Shown here: in pieces, positions 2,100-19,249 of the stretch
Position numbering within the stretch: position 1 is the stretch's first letter
Layout: every line of letters starts with the position of its first letter
From: Anaerolineaceae bacterium
GTDB lineage: Bacteria > Chloroflexota > Anaerolineae > JAAYZQ01
Length of the DNA: 19,249 bases
Reading direction: 5' to 3'
Assembly: GCA_012514775.1 (NCBI GenBank)
Contig: JAAYZQ010000332.1
Span: forward strand, 1 to 19,249
Notes under the pieces: generated by a model
Database searches by the model: none
Told to the model about the DNA's origin: nothing
What the model saw: only the letters and a program-made list of their open reading frames with translations
Position numbers and translations under genes: made by a program

Positions 2100-3701
2100 A
2101 TGCGCTTATCTACGTTGATGGGCAAGACCTTGCGGGAGGCGCCGGCCGAGGCGCACATGGAGGGCCACCGGCTGTCCTTGCGGGCAGGCCTGGTACGGGC
2201 CCTGGAGCCCGGTTTCTTTGCTACCCTGCCCCTTGGCACCCTCAGCCTGCGTCGCCTGGAAGAGATGGCGCGCCGCGAGATGCTGGCCGCGGGCGGGCAA
2301 GAAGTCACCCTCCCCCACCTGCCCGAGACCTCGTCCCGGGACGCCGTGGTGCGCCTGGCCGGCCGCGAGATCGACTCCTACCGCCAGTTGCCCGTCGTGG
2401 CCTTTCGCTTTGGCACCATCGCCACCCCCGAACCCAGGGTCCGGATCGGGCTCTTCGGGGCTGCCCAGCGCCCCTCCCTGGCCGTCGACGTCTTTCACGG
2501 CCAAGGGGGCGCCCCCGAGGCCGCCGAGCCCGGGCAGCCGGTGGCCCTGGCACTGGAGCGCATCTTGCGGGCCTGCGACGTGCCCGTCACCTGGGCCGAG
2601 ACCGGCGAAGGCGAGCAGGGCGCCTTCCTGGCCCACGGCGCCGGCGATGAGGATCTGGCGGCCTGCCCCGGCTGCGGCTATGCTGCCTTGCGCTCCTGGG
2701 CGACGCCGGCCTGGCCCGAACCCCCCGCCGAGCCGGAGATGCCCGTCGAGGAGGTCGAGACGCCCGGCTGCAACACCATCGCCCAGTTGGCCGCCTTCCT
2801 GGAGATTCCCACGAGCCGCACCCTGAAGATGGTCTTTTGCTCCGTGGCAGGCAAGGTGACGTGCGTCGCCGTCCGCGGCGATCGCAGCGTGGACGAGGCC
2901 AAGCTGGCCCGGGTCCTGGGCACGAGCCAGTATTATGCCAGCCTGGAAGAAGAGCTGGACAGGATTGGTGCCGTGGGCGGCTATGCCTCGCCCGTCGGCC
3001 TGGACCCCCGCCAGGTGCGCATCGTGGCCGATCCCTCGGTGCGGTCGGCCAGGAACCTGGTCGGCGGCGCCAATCGCCCCGATTTTCACCTCCGCAACCT
3101 GAACGTGCCGCGCGATTTTCAGCCGGGGGAATGGGTCGACCTGGCCCTCGTCGAGGCCGGCGACCTGTGCCCGCGATGCGCGTCTCCCCTGGCCATCGAG
3201 CCCGCCTTTGCCCTGGCACGCCGTTCCCTGCCCGCCCCCAGCCTGCCGGCCGCCGAGTACCTCGATCAGCAGGGTCGGGCCCAGCCGCTGTGGCGCTCGA
3301 GCTGGCAGCTCGACCTGGGGCGCCTGTGGGCAGCCATCGTGGAGCAACATCACGACGACCACGGCATACTCTGGCCGCCGTCCTGCCCGCCCCTGGACGT
3401 GCACCTGGTGGCCCTGGACCTGAAGAAAGAGTCCGTGGCCGCGCGGGCGGACGAGCTCTATGCCCGGCTCCAGGCCGAGGGCCTGGCCGTCCTGTACGAC
3501 GATCGGGACGCCAGCGCCGGCGTCAAGTTCAACGACGCCGACCTCATCGGCCTGCCCCTGCGCCTGACGGTCAGCAAACGTTGGGAGCAGGATGGCCTGA
3601 CCGAGGCCAAGTGGCGCCACGAGCCAGAGCGCTTGAAGCTCGACGACGAAGGGCTGGCCAGGGAGCTGGCCCGGCTCCGGGAGGCCACAGGCGGGATCTG
3701 A
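2100..3701 (+). CDS. Prolyl-tRNA-synthetase-like protein with degenerate catalytic core and intact editing domain
   Basis: At 533 residues this follows the bacterial ProRS plan but is shorter than the usual ~570. Residues 1-75 match the ProRS N-terminus and motif 1 (L-P-L-G then an R-R-E-M helix). The next ~35 residues, which should include the proline-adenylate T-x-E loop, are missing: the chain goes from 'TLPHLPETSSRD' straight to 'EIDSYRQLP'. The motif 2 region (residues 97-120) keeps E111, R113, R115 and G117-L118, but the ATP-binding arginine position is T109 and the later R-G-R-E-F is lost. Motif 3 reads QLDLGRL (403-409) instead of Y-G-I-G-V-x-R-L. The YbaK-type editing insertion is well kept (about 220-350; G223-C-N-T, K243, 'GANRPDFHLRN'), as are two CxxC knuckles (C189/C192, C357/C360) and the C-terminal anticodon-binding domain (about 430-500). 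An editing or tRNA-binding paralogue is more likely than the housekeeping enzyme. Confidence 0.8.
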   Translation: MRLSTLMGKTLREAPAEAHMEGHRLSLRAGLVRALEPGFFATLPLGTLSLRRLEEMARREMLAAGGQEVTLPHLPETSSRDAVVRLAGREIDSYRQLPVVAFRFGTIATPEPRVRIGLFGAAQRPSLAVDVFHGQGGAPEAAEPGQPVALALERILRACDVPVTWAETGEGEQGAFLAHGAGDEDLAACPGCGYAALRSWATPAWPEPPAEPEMPVEEVETPGCNTIAQLAAFLEIPTSRTLKMVFCSVAGKVTCVAVRGDRSVDEAKLARVLGTSQYYASLEEELDRIGAVGGYASPVGLDPRQVRIVADPSVRSARNLVGGANRPDFHLRNLNVPRDFQPGEWVDLALVEAGDLCPRCASPLAIEPAFALARRSLPAPSLPAAEYLDQQGRAQPLWRSSWQLDLGRLWAAIVEQHHDDHGILWPPSCPPLDVHLVALDLKKESVAARADELYARLQAEGLAVLYDDRDASAGVKFNDADLIGLPLRLTVSKRWEQDGLTEAKWRHEPERLKLDDEGLARELARLREATGGI

Positions 3702-11861: not shown

Positions 11862-13661
11862 ATGTGCGGCATCTTTGGCATCATCACCAACGTTGAAACA
11901 GCCCTCGGCCCGACCCTGTTCCAGGCCGGCAAGCGCCTGGCCTACCGCGGCTACGATTCCGTCGGCTGCGCGACGGTGGCCGCCGACGGCAGCATCGACC
12001 TGCGCAAGGGCGTGGGACGCATCGACGACGTGAGCGCCCGGCTCGACTTTGCCTCCATGCGGGGCTGCCGGGGCATCACCCAGCTTCGGTGGGCCACCTT
12101 TGGCGCGCCATCCTACGAGAACGCCCAGCCGCACCTGGACTCGGACGGCGACCTGGTGGGCGCCCACAATGGCAACGTCGTGAACAACGTGCAGATGCGC
12201 GAGCTGTTCCTCCGCGAGGGGCTGACGGTGCGGGGCACCAACGACGGCGAGACCTGCATCCACGCCGTGGAACGCCACTTTGACCGCAATGGCGGCGACA
12301 TGCTCGCCGCCATCTGCGCCGCCTACGACGACCTGGAGGGCGACTATGCCTTCGTCATCACCCACCGGGACGAGGAGCGGCTGTATGCCATCAAGAAGGG
12401 CTCGGGGCTGGTGGCGGGCCGCGGCGAGGGCATGTCGGTCATCTCGTCGGATCTGCCCAGCCTGCTGCCCCTCACCCGCCGCATCGTCCGCGTCTACGAC
12501 GGCGAGATCGTCGTCCTGACGCCCGACTCGGTGGAGCTGTACAGCGTGCGGGACCGGGCCCCCATCCAGCGGGATGAGGAATGGTACGACGGCCCCATCG
12601 AAGTCGCGGAAAAGGGCGGCTACCCGCACTTTATGCTGAAAGAGATCCACGAGCAACCGACCGTTGCCGGCGAGCTGCTGCACCTGCTGAACAGCTCGCG
12701 CTACGTGCAGCCCTTTCTGGACGCCTTGACCGCCACGGGCGACCGGCCCGTATACCTGGTGGGCTGCGGCACGAGCTATCACGCCTGCCTGCTGGGCGCC
12801 TACTACTTTAACCAGATCGCCAGCCGGCCGGCGGTGGCCGTCCTGGGGCCGCAGTTCATCGAGCAGTACGGCCGCAGCCTGGGGCCGCAAGATACGGCCG
12901 TCTTTGTCAGCCAGAGTGGCGAGACCAAGGACGTGCTGAACGCGGTCAAGGTCATGCGCGAGCGGGGCGGCCGCGTGCTGGGCGTCCTCAACGTCGTGGG
13001 CTCGTCGCTGGCCCACGGCAGCGACGTCTACCTGCCCCTGGCGTGCGGCTACGAGATCAGCGTGCCGGCCACCAAGACCTTTGTCAACCAGGCCGCGCTG
13101 TTCCTGCACCTTGCCACGCGCCTGGCGGGGCGCGACCCGGCCAACCTGAACCCCCTGCCCGAACTGCTCTCCCGCACCCTCGACGCCACCGACGCCGCCG
13201 CCCGCGAGGTCGCCGCCTACCTACACGATTGGAACGACATGTATTACCTGGGCTACGGCATCACGCACCCCATCGCCCTGGAGGGCGCGCTGAAACTCAA
13301 GGAGATCACCTACGCCCACTGCGAGGGCATCTTTTCCAGCGAGTTCAAGCACGGACCGCTGTCGGCCGTCCACGACGGCTACCCCGTGCTGTTCATCACC
13401 GCACCCGGCGACGAGTCGATGATGATCAACCACGTCAACGAGGTCACCGTGCGCGGCGGGCGGACAATCATCGTCGCTGCCGAGCACGAGGCACTGCGCA
13501 AGAACGCGCACGATTATCTCGTCCTGCCCGAGGCCGACCGGTTCACAGTGCCCATCCTGGCTACAATCCCGGCACAGCTCATCTCTTACCACGTGAGCGT
13601 CGCCCGCGGGATCGATCCCGACTTTCCGAGAAACCTGAGCAAGACGCTGACCGTCGATTAG
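11862..13661 (+). CDS. glmS: Glutamine--fructose-6-phosphate aminotransferase (isomerizing), GlmS
   Basis: Makes glucosamine-6-phosphate from fructose-6-phosphate and glutamine, the first step to UDP-GlcNAc for peptidoglycan and other amino sugars. The 599-residue protein has an N-terminal class II glutamine amidotransferase domain: Cys2 becomes the catalytic N-terminus (MCGIFGI), with RGYDS, QLRWATFG (family H-T-R-W-A-T-x-G; Arg kept), AHNGN for the oxyanion hole, and GTNDGE with the substrate-binding Asp. Two SIS sugar-isomerase domains follow: GCGTS (301-305), SQSGET (350-355), 'EISVPATKTF', SEFKHGPL, and the C-terminal KTLTVD (594-599) whose Lys matches the lid lysine. GGAG stands 10 bases before the ATG. 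A partial second copy lies downstream at 14486-14707. The glutaminase motifs deviate slightly from Escherichia coli GlmS, so a related sugar-phosphate substrate is not ruled out. Confidence 0.92.
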   Translation: MCGIFGIITNVETALGPTLFQAGKRLAYRGYDSVGCATVAADGSIDLRKGVGRIDDVSARLDFASMRGCRGITQLRWATFGAPSYENAQPHLDSDGDLVGAHNGNVVNNVQMRELFLREGLTVRGTNDGETCIHAVERHFDRNGGDMLAAICAAYDDLEGDYAFVITHRDEERLYAIKKGSGLVAGRGEGMSVISSDLPSLLPLTRRIVRVYDGEIVVLTPDSVELYSVRDRAPIQRDEEWYDGPIEVAEKGGYPHFMLKEIHEQPTVAGELLHLLNSSRYVQPFLDALTATGDRPVYLVGCGTSYHACLLGAYYFNQIASRPAVAVLGPQFIEQYGRSLGPQDTAVFVSQSGETKDVLNAVKVMRERGGRVLGVLNVVGSSLAHGSDVYLPLACGYEISVPATKTFVNQAALFLHLATRLAGRDPANLNPLPELLSRTLDATDAAAREVAAYLHDWNDMYYLGYGITHPIALEGALKLKEITYAHCEGIFSSEFKHGPLSAVHDGYPVLFITAPGDESMMINHVNEVTVRGGRTIIVAAEHEALRKNAHDYLVLPEADRFTVPILATIPAQLISYHVSVARGIDPDFPRNLSKTLTVD

Positions 13662-13670
13662 ATCTGCTCC

Positions 13671-13699
13671 TTGACCGATTGGCACAATCGGATTATACT
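13671..13699 (+). promoter_or_regulatory. Promoter of the retropepsin module, overlapped by an inverted repeat
   Basis: TTGACC (13671-13676), a 17-bp spacer, and TATACT (13694-13699). The perfect inverted repeat CCGATT-ggcac-AATCGG (13675-13691) starts in the -35 and fills most of the spacer. Its position suits an operator better than a terminator, as no T-run follows. The promoter starts only about 10 bases after the glmS stop. Confidence 0.6.
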
Positions 13700-13770
13700 A
13701 CTACCATAGACGCGAGTCCCATCTCACGTTGCTATGAGGTTTTTGAGGTGAACAGAAAGGGTACGAGACT

Positions 13771-14049
13771 ATGACGTGGCAAGAGGTGCGCAAGGCGTAT
13801 CCGGATCAGTGGCTTGTCATCGAAGCGATCGAGGCGCACACGGAAGAAAACCGGCGATTGCTCGACCAGATCTCTGTCGTAGAGACCAGCGCAGACGGCG
13901 CAGCGGCATTGCAAGCCTACGAGCGCCTGCATCGAGCGCACCCTCAACGCGAGTTCTACTTTGTGCACACCGGGCGCGAGAGTCTGGACATCCGTGAGCG
14001 GCGTTGGATCGGCATTCGGAGGGCAGATGCGGCTTACGCTCAAAGATAA
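13771..14049 (+). CDS. Conserved hypothetical protein, partner of the retropepsin-like protease
   Basis: A 92-residue soluble protein beginning MTWQEVRKAYPDQWLVIEAI and containing 'HPQREFYFVHTGRESLDI'. I know no named domain for it, but small proteins with this 'Y-P-x-Q-W' start and 'P-x-R-E-F-Y-F-V-H-T' segment are often encoded directly upstream of retropepsin-like proteins in Chloroflexota and some other phyla. The ATG at 13771 follows AAAGGG with a spacing of 9. Its end overlaps the next gene by 23 bp, so the two are probably translated together. Base composition is visibly lower in GC than glmS or the ABC genes, as is that of its partner. The function is unknown; a chaperone, substrate or adaptor for the protease would all fit. 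Confidence 0.8.
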   Translation: MTWQEVRKAYPDQWLVIEAIEAHTEENRRLLDQISVVETSADGAAALQAYERLHRAHPQREFYFVHTGRESLDIRERRWIGIRRADAAYAQR

Positions 14050-14425
14050 CCTGCCATTCACCCATGTGAAACTCAAGTATCTGGAGACCGAGATCGAGAT
14101 TCCGGATGTACTCATAGACACTGGATCCGCGAGCACGATTTTGGCAGCGCACTTGGTGGCAGAAGCAGGTATCGAGCCCGAGATGTCCGATATTCTGTAT
14201 ACAATTCGAGGCGTGGGTGGAACAGAAGCAGTATTCAGCCGCCGAGTCGACACGTTACAAGTTGGCCCCTCTACCGTCTCCGACTTTGAGATCGAGGTTG
14301 GCGGAATGGACTACGGGTTCGAGATCAATGGCATCCTTGGTATGGACTATATGCTCCAGACTGGCATGATCATCAATCTTGATGAGTTGAGGCTCGAGTT
14401 TTCGGAGCGACTCCGCAATCAGTAG
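14027..14425 (+). CDS. Retropepsin-like aspartic protease domain protein
   Basis: A 132-residue single-domain protein. It carries the aspartic protease motif 'VLIDTGSASTIL' (D-T-G-S, about residues 26-34), the flap region, and the second hydrophobic-hydrophobic-G element as 'INGILGMDYML', all as in bacterial retropepsin-like proteins that act as homodimers. No signal peptide or membrane helix is seen, so it is probably cytosolic. The start is placed at the ATG at 14027, where GGAGGG lies at 14018-14023 and the protein begins 'MRLTLKDNLPFTHVKLKYL'; an in-frame ATG at 13961 would add 22 residues unlike the family. It overlaps the upstream gene. Composition is AT-richer than the flanks, consistent with transfer. 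Target protein unknown. Confidence 0.85.
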   Translation: MRLTLKDNLPFTHVKLKYLETEIEIPDVLIDTGSASTILAAHLVAEAGIEPEMSDILYTIRGVGGTEAVFSRRVDTLQVGPSTVSDFEIEVGGMDYGFEINGILGMDYMLQTGMIINLDELRLEFSERLRNQ

Positions 14426-14452
14426 AGCCTTGGCTGAGTAGTAGGCGGCAGG

Positions 14453-14468
14453 ACAAGGACAGCCTTGT
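14453..14468 (+). other. Small hairpin after the retropepsin gene
   Basis: ACAAGG (14453-14458) and CCTTGT (14463-14468) form a 6-bp stem with an ACAG loop, 28 bases after the stop. The T-run expected of an intrinsic terminator is absent. It also sits 18 bases before the left end of the glmS fragment. Confidence 0.3.
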
Positions 14469-14485
14469 TAGTCGGTTGCGTCCCA

Positions 14486-14707
14486 TACTACCTGGGCCAC
14501 GGCGTGACACACCCCATCGCCCTGGAGGGCGCGCTGAAGCTCAAGGAGATCACCTACGCCCACTGCGAGGGCAGCTTTTTCAGCGAGTTCAAGCACGGAC
14601 CCCTGTCCGCCGTCCACGACGGCTACCCCGTGCTGTTCATCACCGCGCCCGGCGACGAGTCGATGATGATCAACCCGGTTCGCTCGAGCCGCAACGAGGT
14701 CACCGTG
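14486..14707 (+). pseudogene. glmS fragment (second SIS domain remnant)
   Basis: This stretch aligns with 13242-13451 of the intact glmS, covering GlmS residues 461-530. By hand I count 14 substitutions in 210 aligned bases (about 93% identity), seven of them synonymous, plus a 12-base in-frame insertion (codons R-S-S-R) just before the shared N-E-V-T-V. Changes include Y465H, I467V, S492F and H524P. Similarity starts sharply at 'YYLG' and fades after 14707. There is no glutaminase domain, no first SIS domain and no C-terminus, so no working enzyme can be made, although the frame from 14465 to 14785 is open. The high share of silent changes suggests the parent copy was once under selection. 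The retropepsin pair lies exactly between the intact gene and this remnant. Confidence 0.88.
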
Positions 14708-14816
14708 GGCGCCCTGCGGCCCAACGTCGACGCCCGTCTGGCCAATCGAGCATCAGCCGTGAATGGCTGGCGGCGCGTGGAGTGACATGCCTGGTAACCC
14801 AGGAAGCGAGGCGAGT

Positions 14817-15200
14817 ATGCTGCAAAATGTCAACCAGCAGATCCTGACCTGGGTCGAGTTCACCGCAGTGGTCATGGAGGTCCTGGCGGTGGCCGTCATC
14901 GTGCTGGCCATGCTTTATTTCACCGTCCGATTCCTGCTCAAGGCGACGTTGCAACGCCACGAGAGCTGGTACGAAAAACTGAGATCCGGCCTGGGTCGCT
15001 CACTGATCCTGGGGCTGGAGTTCCTTCTCGCCGCCGATGTGGTTCGCACCGTCGCCCTGGATGCCACCCTGGAAAGCGTGGCCGTCCTGGGCCTCCTGGT
15101 GTTGATTCGAACCTTCCTGAGCTGGGCGTTGATCGTCGAGATCGAGGGCCGTTGGCCGTGGCAGGCTCACCGGGCCAACGTGCCTCCTCCGCGGGATTGA
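14817..15200 (+). CDS. DUF1622 family membrane protein
   Basis: A 127-residue protein with three hydrophobic segments (about residues 10-42, 62-78 and 85-105). The block 'LGRSLILGLEFLLAADVVRTV' followed by 'LESVAVLGLLVLIRTFLSW' and 'VEIEGRWPW' is the DUF1622 signature. The family has no assigned function. The start at 14817 (MLQNVNQQ) is preferred: GAGG (14808-14811) lies at the right distance and the length then equals the family norm; upstream in-frame ATGs at 14763 and 14787 would add residues without family similarity. A small CCTGG/CCAGG hairpin (14790-14803) precedes the RBS. No clear promoter is seen; it may be read from the unit upstream. Confidence 0.88.
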   Translation: MLQNVNQQILTWVEFTAVVMEVLAVAVIVLAMLYFTVRFLLKATLQRHESWYEKLRSGLGRSLILGLEFLLAADVVRTVALDATLESVAVLGLLVLIRTFLSWALIVEIEGRWPWQAHRANVPPPRD

Positions 15201-15204
15201 TTGG

Positions 15205-15316
15205 TCTCTCCCGATCTTTTTCGAGCCTGTTCATCCTCACCGGCGCCATCGAGACCACCGGCCTGTCCAGGCGACTGGTTGCCATGGCGAGACGGAACAA
15301 GGTGCACGGCTATCAC
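15205..15316 (+). pseudogene. Possible remnant of an ion-transporter membrane segment
   Basis: In one frame of the intergenic region the translation includes 'SSLFILTGAIETTGLSRRLV', a hydrophobic stretch with the look of the 'G-A-(I/L)-E-x-T-G-L' segment of ArsB/SLC13-type anion transporters. There is no start with an RBS of its own and the frame ends at 15343, just past the promoter. A chance match is quite possible. Confidence 0.18.
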
Positions 15317-15344
15317 TTGACGGGACCTGGAAAGGGTGTATAAT
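15317..15344 (+). promoter_or_regulatory. Promoter of the multi-GAF gene
   Basis: TTGACG (15317-15322), a 16-bp spacer, and a perfect TATAAT (15339-15344). Transcription starting near 15351 gives a leader of about 135 nt. Confidence 0.7.
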
Positions 15345-15350
15345 TATCAT

Positions 15351-15486
15351 CTAGACGGGCCTGATCTTGTGCCAAACAAGGCAAAGGCCTTTCCCTGAGT
15401 GCCGCACTGATCAGTTGGACGGGTCTCAAGTTCTGAAACGACGGTCGGTGAACGACGTCTTCGCCACCAAAGAAGGAGGCTCCATC
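15351..15486 (+). other. Leader region of the multi-GAF gene
   Basis: It holds a long-range inverted repeat CTGATC (15361-15366) / GATCAG (15409-15414), a 10-bp palindrome AAAGGCCTTT (15383-15392), and two similar GACGGG-x-CT words at about 15354 and 15418. No known riboswitch is recognised. A strong AAGGAGG (15473-15479) lies seven bases before the ATG. Confidence 0.35.
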
Positions 15487-18400
15487 ATGCACGGTTCAGT
15501 CACCCCTGGCTCGGCACCGCGCGAGCTCAACGAGCTGGAAAACGCGCTTCAGAGCTTCGTGGAGCAGGTAGCGCGAGACTTCCGAGCCGACATTGTCACT
15601 CTGTATCTCTACGACGCCGATCAAGACCGCTTTTACCTCCCTGTGGGCTGTGGGCTGCGCGACGAAATCACCTTCAAGACCGTCATGCCGCGCACCGACA
15701 GGCTGGCGGGCAAGATCGTCAAAGGCCGGGTACCAATCATCGCCGAAGAAGCGCGGCTGCATCCGGATATGGCGGGACCGTTCACCTTCCGGGAGCGTGT
15801 CGAATCGGCGGCCGGCTTTCCTGTCTTTTTGCAGGAGCGCTCTGCCGGCGTATGCTTTGTCAGTTTTCGCAAGCCTCACACCTTCCAGGAGCGGGAGAAG
15901 GAGAACATCCAGGAGTGCCTGCGCGAGGTGTCGACCATCCTCAGAACAGCGCAGTTGGCCGAGATGCGCCAGGTGCTGGAACCCAGCGCTCCAACCGCCA
16001 GCATCGTCGACCGCAGCCTGAGCTTTATCGTCAAAGCAGCCTGTATGTACACCAACGCCCCCGTGGCCCTTTGGATGCTGGAGCCCAGCCAGAACCGGCT
16101 CTCCATCCAGGCCGCCACCGGCATCGGCCACGGTTTTGTGCAGTCGGCCCAGCTCTCGCTGGGTAAAAACCATATCCTGGCCGAGATCATGCGCACAAGA
16201 GAGTCCAGGACCTGTTCCGACCTGGAAGACAACCCCGGGTTCCCCTTCCAACGAGCGCTGCGCAACGAGGGCTGGAAGTCCCTGCTCGCCGTCCCGGTCG
16301 TGCTGCGTGACCAGGCGGTCGGCGTGCTGGCAATATTCGGCTTTCCCGGGCGCGCCTTTGCTGCGTCCGATGAAAAGCTGCTGGCCGAGCTTGCCCAGCG
16401 CGTGAGCGACGTGTTGATCATTGTCAGCAATTTGCACGAGGTCAGCCTGGCGCTGGCCGCCAAGCAGGAGCTGAAGCAACTCCTGCGGTTGATTGTCGAT
16501 AAGGCAGCGGAGACTTTTGGCGCAGACATCGCCACGCTTTATCTCTACGACCAGGACCGGGACGAGTTCGGCGAGGTGATTGCCCAGGGGGTCACGGACG
16601 ACTTTTTCGAACATCCCAAACCCAGCAAAACAGGCATTGCGTCCCAGATCGTGCGCACAGCCACACCTGTTTTCTCGGAGGATGCCGAGCACGACGAGCG
16701 GATGTCAAAGGGATTCATCATCCGCCAGGGAGTCAAATCCACAGCAGGCTCGCCCCTCGTCGTGGGGGATCAGGTTGTCGGAGTGCTTTTCATCAACTTT
16801 CGAACCCCTCACCGGTTCCTGAAAAGTGACCAGGAGCTGCTCGCCCTGTATGCCGGGCAGGCGGCAGCGGCGATCATGAACGCCCAGCTCTTCGAGGAGG
16901 AACAACGGCGAACGACGATGGCCCAGATCGCCAACACCTTTGGCGAGACGTTCGACCGGCAGAAGACGTTGCAGGCCGTGGTGGAAGGGGCGCAGAAGCT
17001 AACCGGCGCTTCCAGCAGTTCCCTGTACCTCTTTGCACGGGACAAGGGCAAGAAAGGATCCTTCGAGCTCAGTGCCCGCTCGCCCAGGCTCGCGGAGAGC
17101 CACCGGCAGCCGCCCCGCTCAACACGCGGCTTGAGCCGGCTAATCCTCGACACGGGCCGGCCTGTCGTCATCGCCGATACGCGCCAGCCCCTGCGCCTGG
17201 GAGATGCGGGCCAGGAGATCCGGGTGCGGGCGAGTGTGGTTCGTGAGGGGACCCTGTCCATCCTCGGGGTGCCCGTCCAGATCAAGGGCGAGCGTGTGGG
17301 TGTCTTGTATGTGAACAGCAGCGAGGTCAATCACTTTCGTGAGCGCGATAAGGAACTGCTCCAGAGGTTGGCCGATTATGGGGCCGTGGCCATCGAGCGC
17401 ACGCGGCTCCTGGACGCCATCACAGAGGTCAACAGGGCCACGGGCGAGATCCTTCGCCTGGACGACCAGATCAAGGAACTGCTTGGCAAGATCGTCAACG
17501 ATCTTGGGTTCGAGTTCGCCGCGCTCCAGTTGGTGAACTGGGAGCAAAAGACCATCGAGACGGTGGACGGCATCAATGCGGCGTGGGGTGCCGAGGCAAA
17601 ACATGCCCTCGACAGCGACGATATCCAGGCTGCCATCGTGCGCTCTCGCCGCACGGAAGTCATCACCGGGCCAGACAAACGCTTCGACCCGGCCATCTAT
17701 GACCGCTACCGCCACGAGCGACTGGTGCGCGTCTTTGTGCCCATCATCGCCCACAACACGGTACTGGGCACGGTCGAAGCCGGACACGACCGCCACAGCC
17801 ACCCCGAAATCTCCCCCGAGGAACGCCAGGGCCTGGAGAGCCTCATCCACGACTATGCTCAGCGGCTGTGGCGGGCCACCCTGCCCTGCGTAATCGAGGT
17901 CGTCATCGTCAACGCCGTGCGCATGGTGCGCGCCCATTCGGGCAGCATCCACCTGCTCTGGGACAAGGACGGCAAGCGCTACGTGTACCAGGCCTGCGCC
18001 GGCCGCATCGGCTCCGAGTTTCTCAAGGCCTTTCCCCCGCGCGAGCGGGGTATCGGCGAACAATCACTCAGGGAAAAACACTCCAGGTTCATCGACGATC
18101 CGGATAGGCTGGCCAAGACCCATCCGAACGTCTACACTCCTCGGATCCTGTGGGAAAAGCATCCCACCAGGTACAAGGAAGGAGAGGGCATCCGGGCCAT
18201 CGCCAGCCTGCCCCTGGTGACGGGCGGCAAGTACGAGGGGGTATTCTACATCCATTTCTGGGAGCCGCACACCTTCACCGACGACGAGATAAGCTGGCTC
18301 GAGCTTTTCGCCGAGCAGGTTTCGACCGTGATCCAGAACGCGCAGTTCTACGAAAAGCTGCGAGACCGAAACCGTGCCCTGACCAGCCTGTCGATGATCG

Positions 18401-19249
18401 GCGAGTCGGTAGTGGGCGAGCTGGAGCTGGACGCCCTTCTGACCCAGATTGCCCAGGGCGCAGTCGACGTCCTCAAGGCCGACATCGTGACCATCTACCA
18501 GTACTACCAGGACAGGGACGAGTTTGTCACACCCCCCACCATGAAGGGCAAGGACATCAAGCTAAGCTTCATGCAATCCTCCGTCGCAGAGAGGGACGCT
18601 CCCTCGGTGATCGTGCGCCAGTTGCGGCGCAGCCGCTACGCGCCCGATGCCCGGAACGACGAGGTCATGTGCAATCGTGCTTCCGCCCGGGCAGTCGGCA
18701 GAGTGCCATTCGTGGATCGTGAAGGGATCGAGTCTTCCGCGGGCATTCTGCTGCAGTGGCAGCAAGAGATCGTCGGCGTGATGTTTGTGAACTATCGCGC
18801 CCGCAGGGACTTTACCGACACCGAGCGACGGGTCATCGAAAGTTTTGCCTCCTATGCCGCCGTCGCCATTCGCAGCGCGCGGCAGGCTATCTATCGACGG
18901 GTCAGCCAATTTGAGGCGATCCAGGAGATCGACAAGGAGATCTCTTCGACACTCGACCTCGATCGGGTGTTGCACCTGATCCTGGACAAGAGCATGGAGC
19001 ACCTGCGGGTCACGGACGGCTACGGGACGCTGTATCTATACGACGAACGATCGCAGAGGCTCATCCTGCGCGCCGCCAGAAACGTGCCGCCCGACAAGCT
19101 CGTCCAGCAGTTACCCATGGACAGGCACTGCGTCACGACACGCGCAGCCCGAGAAAAAGAGGTGGTCCTCGTCCCGAACACGATGATCGAGCCGGAGTAT
19201 GCCGAGCTCGTGCCCGGTGCGCGCTCGGAGCTGGCCGCCCCGCTGGTCC
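15487..19249 (+). CDS. Very large tandem-GAF sensor protein (at least seven GAF domains plus a partial eighth; 3' end outside window)
   Basis: From the ATG at 15487, behind a strong AAGGAGG, the frame runs 1,254 codons to the window edge without a stop. I translated every line to check this. The chain is a string of GAF domains of about 150-170 residues: about 17-160, 160-320, 320-476, 479-644, 645-800, 799-962, 962-1135, and a partial one from 1139. Each has a helix, a 'Y-L-Y-D'-type strand, a central 'P' loop, 'S-x-x-(A/G)-x-P-(L/V)' before a 'G-V-L/F-x-(V/I)-x-F/Y' strand, then 'F-x-x-x-(D/E)-x-x-x-L' and a long linking helix. Examples are 'DIVTLYLYDADQDRF' in the first and 'DIATLYLYDQDRDEF' in the third. 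There is no signal peptide or membrane helix, so it is cytosolic. GAF domains bind cyclic nucleotides and other small ligands; ligands and output domain (kinase, cyclase, phosphatase or other) are not visible here. Confidence 0.9.
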   Translation, partial: MHGSVTPGSAPRELNELENALQSFVEQVARDFRADIVTLYLYDADQDRFYLPVGCGLRDEITFKTVMPRTDRLAGKIVKGRVPIIAEEARLHPDMAGPFTFRERVESAAGFPVFLQERSAGVCFVSFRKPHTFQEREKENIQECLREVSTILRTAQLAEMRQVLEPSAPTASIVDRSLSFIVKAACMYTNAPVALWMLEPSQNRLSIQAATGIGHGFVQSAQLSLGKNHILAEIMRTRESRTCSDLEDNPGFPFQRALRNEGWKSLLAVPVVLRDQAVGVLAIFGFPGRAFAASDEKLLAELAQRVSDVLIIVSNLHEVSLALAAKQELKQLLRLIVDKAAETFGADIATLYLYDQDRDEFGEVIAQGVTDDFFEHPKPSKTGIASQIVRTATPVFSEDAEHDERMSKGFIIRQGVKSTAGSPLVVGDQVVGVLFINFRTPHRFLKSDQELLALYAGQAAAAIMNAQLFEEEQRRTTMAQIANTFGETFDRQKTLQAVVEGAQKLTGASSSSLYLFARDKGKKGSFELSARSPRLAESHRQPPRSTRGLSRLILDTGRPVVIADTRQPLRLGDAGQEIRVRASVVREGTLSILGVPVQIKGERVGVLYVNSSEVNHFRERDKELLQRLADYGAVAIERTRLLDAITEVNRATGEILRLDDQIKELLGKIVNDLGFEFAALQLVNWEQKTIETVDGINAAWGAEAKHALDSDDIQAAIVRSRRTEVITGPDKRFDPAIYDRYRHERLVRVFVPIIAHNTVLGTVEAGHDRHSHPEISPEERQGLESLIHDYAQRLWRATLPCVIEVVIVNAVRMVRAHSGSIHLLWDKDGKRYVYQACAGRIGSEFLKAFPPRERGIGEQSLREKHSRFIDDPDRLAKTHPNVYTPRILWEKHPTRYKEGEGIRAIASLPLVTGGKYEGVFYIHFWEPHTFTDDEISWLELFAEQVSTVIQNAQFYEKLRDRNRALTSLSMIGESVVGELELDALLTQIAQGAVDVLKADIVTIYQYYQDRDEFVTPPTMKGKDIKLSFMQSSVAERDAPSVIVRQLRRSRYAPDARNDEVMCNRASARAVGRVPFVDREGIESSAGILLQWQQEIVGVMFVNYRARRDFTDTERRVIESFASYAAVAIRSARQAIYRRVSQFEAIQEIDKEISSTLDLDRVLHLILDKSMEHLRVTDGYGTLYLYDERSQRLILRAARNVPPDKLVQQLPMDRHCVTTRAAREKEVVLVPNTMIEPEYAELVPGARSELAAPLV

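Follow-up and report, generated by a model that had tools for sequence, protein, structure and literature searches.

A gene for a predicted nine-GAF histidine kinase in an Anaerolineaceae contig, from a family with an ordered sensor array and exchanged outputs

What kind of protein is encoded by a gene in which nothing but GAF domains can be recognised? This question arises at the right end of a 19,249-nucleotide stretch of DNA from an Anaerolineaceae bacterium (contig JAAYZQ010000332.1 of assembly GCA_012514775.1, Chloroflexota), hereafter the window, where a frame starting at ATG 15487 stays open up to the edge through 1,254 codons, as an original prediction made from the letters alone had noticed. 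The encoded fragment most likely makes up about 73% of a predicted soluble histidine kinase of around 1,705 residues, and the gene, which is real and sound, belongs to the multi-GAF histidine kinases. Its number of GAFs is ordinary, and the points of interest are the fixed order of the domains, an inverted pattern of conservation and the exchange of outputs.

The apparent lack of an output domain is an edge effect, since the closest relative continues into one. A homologue search with the window fragment (P0001) gave 188 proteins, 120 of them listed, and the closest among the matches listed, P0002, is 94% identical over the entire window part. In this protein of 1,710 amino acids, nine GAFs are followed by a helical region that contains a histidine of the kinase type and then by an HATPase_c domain (Pfam, residues 1589-1695, E 2.3e-20). 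Its residues 1475-1697 align with KinB, a sporulation kinase (3d36; E 5.9e-15), in a way that pairs H1491, taken as the DHp phosphoacceptor, with the histidine of KinB, and the HATPase_c of P0002 has the N, G1 and G2 boxes (NLIDNAVKA at 1599, DTGVGM at 1633 and SLGLGLW at 1657); in the gene itself both regions would lie outside the window. P0003, 83% identical to the window protein, has the same GAF order and kinase type according to hidden Markov models (HMMs) built from the family, whereas P0004 (71%) joins the same array and GAF9 to a histidine-kinase core of another type. The histidine and the three boxes, sought together as a pattern, are all present in 5 of 14 proteins (P0002, P0003, P0004, P0005 and P0007). 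Moreover, neither P0001 nor P0002 has a strongly hydrophobic stretch of 19 residues, as expected of a membrane helix (the highest mean is 1.86). The gene thus very probably encodes a soluble, cytosolic histidine kinase with nine ordered GAFs, a DHp-like region and HATPase_c, its missing part presumably continuing as in P0002, and the earlier description of a protein built almost wholly of GAFs gives way, because the three relatives all go on to GAF9 and a histidine-kinase core.

Within the window part, GAFs are the only domains recognised by Pfam, whose GAF models match all eight segments at E<=0.01 (Table 1), although the partial GAF8 scores under every curated Pfam cut-off. The predicted structures agree with these profiles: GAF5, the weakest complete match, also takes the GAF fold in the model, and the GAF units of the modelled array are joined by helices of 20-45 residues. 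Seven complete GAFs, part of an eighth and linker helices had all been proposed from the sequence, and all are borne out. A Foldseek search with the array placed the tandem GAFs of cyclases and phosphodiesterases (1ykd, PDE2A, PDE5A, PDE6) among the best matches, while NCBIfam gave no match at curated cut-offs for P0001, P0002 or P0008 among the matches listed (for P0002, the best 25 of 82).

With the family HMMs, the nine positions are found in identical order in all eight full-length members (P0002-P0005 and P0007-P0010), and the shorter P0006 (906 aa) has positions 1-6. Three related proteins, 1,434-1,436 aa long and here called the KSB1 group after the name that one of them bears, follow the order 1-2-4-5-6-7-9 and carry a kinase that best matches the first of two kinase types, A and B; P0011 shows 1-2-4-5-6-7, and its kinase bears a weak resemblance to type B (58 bits). 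Neither the KSB1 group nor P0011 has positions 3 and 8. A quick tree was made of 75 GAF domains, taken from nine of the 12 full-length related proteins (the near copies P0003, P0010 and P0123 and the fragments P0001 and P0006 were omitted), and in it every one of the nine positions forms a single clade (SH-aLRT 96-100); therefore, the array does not come from recent duplication, and there were no swaps of position within the tree set. Specificity is lower for the HMM labels 3 and 8, and label 8 also matches P0013, P0125 and P0129, among other homologues.

Behind this array, the outputs have been exchanged, giving two dissimilar kinase types and one AAA/STAND-like ATPase. P0002 and P0004 are 68% identical in their GAFs and 23% in their kinases, whereas P0004 and P0005 are 59% identical in the GAFs and 58% in the kinases. 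Trees of the two parts conflict accordingly. A joined GAF tree of six positions places P0004 with P0002 and P0003 (100/100), and constraints that pair P0004 with P0005 or group five type-A proteins are rejected (p 1.4e-55 and 1.1e-4, respectively). The kinase tree, which covers 61 of the 138 proteins in which a kinase was matched (the 60 top scorers and P0011), puts P0004 and P0005 together (support 99) and rejects the seven nine-GAF kinases as one group (p 0.003). The number and direction of the exchanges are not fixed by these trees, because a single group of nine-GAF and KSB1 kinases is not rejected (p 0.16), type A has a support of 94, and P0011 sits on a long branch that drew a tool warning in both the GAF and kinase trees. 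In P0008 the kinase is missing, and a tenth GAF is followed by an ATPase_2/AAA domain (Pfam). Another pair of homologues, P0012 and P0131 (57% identical in the sensor, 28% in the kinase), represents a second possible exchange of output.

Such swaps bear directly on the gene in the window, whose output could differ from that of P0002 because a relative as close as P0004 carries another kinase type. The array might end here in the second kinase type, found in P0004 and P0005, or in an ATPase like that of P0008, as the conflicting trees would allow; yet the two nearest relatives, P0002 and P0003, have one kinase type in common, which makes this outcome improbable. A GAF-only scaffold or rod lacking any catalytic output, another of the original proposals, is less probable still: it fits the GAF-only view offered by the window and a distant homologue, P0137, annotated with only GAFs and DUF3369, but an output domain is present in 8/8 full-length nine-GAF relatives (kinase in seven, ATPase in one), and in the closest of them the same array precedes a histidine-kinase core.

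For the histidine kinase that we favour, the GAF rod most likely integrates several internal signals, so that the multi-input sensing first suggested stands as the likely role. Beyond sequence and fold, we infer a scheme of dimerisation, ligand binding and phosphotransfer. The protein would dimerise along its linker helices, several GAFs would bind internal small molecules or partners, and the resulting changes would be summed along the ordered rod and would set autophosphorylation at the DHp histidine, from which the phosphate may move to a response regulator encoded elsewhere. The bilin-binding GAFs of cyanobacteriochromes are marked by Cys-His and D-x-C-F motifs, and neither occurs in any of 11 family proteins; bilin is thus an unlikely ligand, and a cyanobacteriochrome-like light sensor, the least credible of the alternatives, was set aside.

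Several observations weigh against the histidine kinase and its proposed working. The last quarter of the gene is outside the sequence, with the kinase of P0004 as a reminder that a 71%-identical protein can end differently. The pattern of histidine and boxes is incomplete in 9 of the 14 proteins, including P0009, P0010, P0122-P0124 and P0011, and the phosphoacceptor histidine of P0009, P0010, P0011 and the KSB1 group is recognised by eye only. Pfam HisKA has no match in P0002 at E<=0.1, and no response regulator appears among the 20 window frames scanned. Furthermore, the rod need not be a simple parallel one, because according to a 2006 analysis (PMC1592074) the coiled coils between GAFs in prokaryotic structures are anti-parallel.

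Conservation within the nine-GAF family is inverted, the sensors being better kept than the kinase. Mean pairwise identity amounts to 47-65% for the nine GAFs (8 proteins) and to 36-37% for the DHp and catalytic parts (7 proteins), and the array is the better conserved part in 21/21 family pairs. As a control, 277 other pairs were taken from the same searches (BLASTP identity 40-92%, query coverage of at least 70%, and at least 200 and 120 aligned residues in sensor and kinase, respectively); the kinase was better conserved in 198 of them and not in 79, the pairs not being independent of one another. When only pairs within one kinase type are considered, the array is ahead in 11/11, by a margin of just 1-2 points in two of them. 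Three KSB1-group pairs, counted inside the 277, lean toward the array as well.

One explanation would make the kinase an exchangeable read-out and the array a conserved hub, which would bind a fixed set of several partners or ligands and which selection would maintain as a whole. The contrast between family and control pairs, the GAF order fixed across distant relatives and an output replaced at least once all fit this idea, which we nevertheless regard as rather unlikely: nine ligand pockets all feeding one kinase could also give high array conservation, the hub partners are hypothetical, and the dependence among pairs and the two narrow margins within type blunt the comparison. Somewhat more plausible, if still tentative, is that the ordered array, with its core 1-2-4-5-6-7 and nine domains in this lineage, was inherited as one sensing and integrating machine across very distant bacteria, probably across phyla, with positions that are not interchangeable and an output that is replaceable.

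If true, an ordered array with a replaceable output would invert the usual view, in which the kinase is conserved and the sensors vary. The family constitutes a natural experiment, where the nine sensors hold their order and sequence as the outputs behind them change, which shows the part kept by selection, and matched pairs with arrays 68% identical and dissimilar kinases would suit tests of how a signal passes through a long GAF rod. The practical weight of these findings is still low.

Among the systems already described, soluble multi-GAF/PAS sensor histidine kinases, such as P0132 with its 16 GAFs, likewise join serial GAFs to a C-terminal kinase core. The nine-GAF family differs from them in that the order of its GAFs is kept between distant relatives, the array is better conserved than the kinase, P0002 lacks a HisKA match and the output of its relatives has been exchanged. 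PtxD, a seven-GAF cyanobacteriochrome from Nostoc punctiforme, also has a long GAF series in one sensor, where at least six GAFs bind bilin (PMC5812497, PMC6696110); the nine-GAF proteins, in contrast, lack the Cys-His dipeptide. The DosS/DosT histidine kinases have two GAFs instead of nine, with heme in the first GAF of DosT (PMC8534201). The tandem GAFs of cyclases and phosphodiesterases share their fold and helical linkers with the window array, but there are only two of them and the output is a cyclic-nucleotide enzyme. Literature searches on multi-GAF kinases, GAF numbers and arrays, Chloroflexi, Anaerolineae and KSB1, output exchange, and GAF conflict systems did not find the nine-GAF family, as judged by titles and the openings of abstracts.

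A row of eight or nine GAFs is ordinary in size, contrary to the exceptional status that it was first given. The comparison of domain counts shows at least eight GAFs in 76 of 181 homologues, the window protein itself excluded, a set that comes from similarity searches and is not a census, and the maximum is found in P0132 (2,948 aa), where Pfam confirms 16 GAF stretches together with HisKA and HATPase_c. Counts were made with the family HMMs and checked with Pfam for the window protein, P0002, P0004, P0005, P0007, P0008, P0010, P0011, P0012, P0123 and P0132; Pfam recovered one stretch fewer in P0007 (8 vs 9), P0011 (5 vs 6) and P0123 (6 vs 7).

Wider searches reached a few distant relatives. 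A contig pattern search with the window protein gave 16 pattern matches, none of them related, and one with alignment A1 gave 63, including three distant loci at 27-28% identity. P0002 found no match at E<=1e-60 in 396 genomes from the class of an Anaerolineae metagenome-assembled genome (MAG), a search in which two candidates per genome were scored among the matches listed, without a positive control, and which is hence no proof of absence. A GAF5-7 query matched 2 of these 396 at E<=1e-30, both times covering just the end of GAF6 plus GAF7, and 0 of 292 genomes in the phylum of a Nostoc genome (G001), where it missed the known locus L001 in G001 itself. GAF5-type domains at E<=1e-8 occur in 35 of the 396 genomes (the class of G003) and in 1 of 297 from the phylum of G002 (Terriglobia), and in the loci read they mostly sit in other GAF arrays. 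The notion that GAF5, 6 and 7 always travel together was rejected, the GAF6 and GAF7 labels following in 0/20 loci (L012-L031) from the 396-genome class, each of about 2.4-3.5 kb and some with ends beyond view. In G003, 55 matches to P0002 were found at E<=1e-10, and on contig C46 of this Anaerolineae MAG the matches fall in a pair of long open frames (1,549 and 1,742 aa) lying within a few kb.

The series GAF5-6-7 was met in this order in the nine-GAF family, P0011 and the KSB1 group, and also at L001 and L002 (L032 is apparently the same gene as L002). At L001:8027-12349, from Nostoc calcicola, an EAD8 frame is followed by a pentapeptide-repeat protein with the three domain types, and at L002:3-5681, from a Terriglobia MAG, a GAF5-6-7 protein with HATPase_c adjoins a TIR_2 frame. 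These neighbours, together with the ATPase of P0008, are sequence-based hints of a possible use in conflict-type systems, where GAF is one of the nucleotide-binding domains, such domains being less frequent than nucleotide-generating enzymes (eLife, PMC7159879). EAD8 and TIR neighbours were found only at the relatives of 27-28% identity and the AAA output in P0008 only; PADLOC gave four weak matches for P0008 (E 4e-4 to 8e-3) and none for P0002.

Table 1. Features of the sensor gene and of the region just upstream, in window coordinates.
Feature	Coordinates	Strand	Remarks
Sigma-70-like promoter TTGACG-16-TATAAT	15317..15344	+	pattern match 11/12; sequence pattern alone, says nothing on function
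Shine-Dalgarno-like AAGGAGG	15473..15479	+	read from sequence; ATG 7 nt downstream
Nine-GAF sensor kinase gene (predicted), 5' part	15487..19249	+	cut by window edge; 1,254 of ~1,705 codons, length judged from P0002
GAF1	15526..15975	+	
GAF2	15979..16425	+	
GAF3	16435..16911	+	missing in KSB1-group relatives and P0011
GAF4	16912..17415	+	
GAF5	17416..17871	+	divergent GAF subtype
GAF6	17872..18369	+	Pfam GAF_2 45.2 bits; structure model
GAF7	18370..18906	+	Pfam GAF 38.3 bits; structure model
GAF8, N-terminal part	18910..19248	+	Pfam GAF_2 27.9 bits vs cut-off 28.6; profile positions 2-97 of 136; window edge cuts domain

Rfam has no match to a leader RNA element in 13600-15600 at E<=0.1, nor any match at gathering scores in the whole window. 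The upstream genes concern phosphate transport, prolyl-tRNA synthetase (2100-3701), ECF and ABC transporters, GlmS and DUF1622, and no functional link between them and the sensor gene was seen. The prolyl-tRNA synthetase has relatives at 78-96% identity, and the two that carry an organism name among the best 120 of 441 matches are Anaerolineae, at 60-62%, which makes an origin in Chloroflexota likely. The DUF1622 frame (14763-15200) lies immediately upstream of the sensor gene. A glmS fragment with a SIS domain (14465-14785) is a partial duplicate of the intact glmS (11862-13661), with 86% identity across 248 nt, and an aspartyl-protease-like frame (13961-14425) separates the two.
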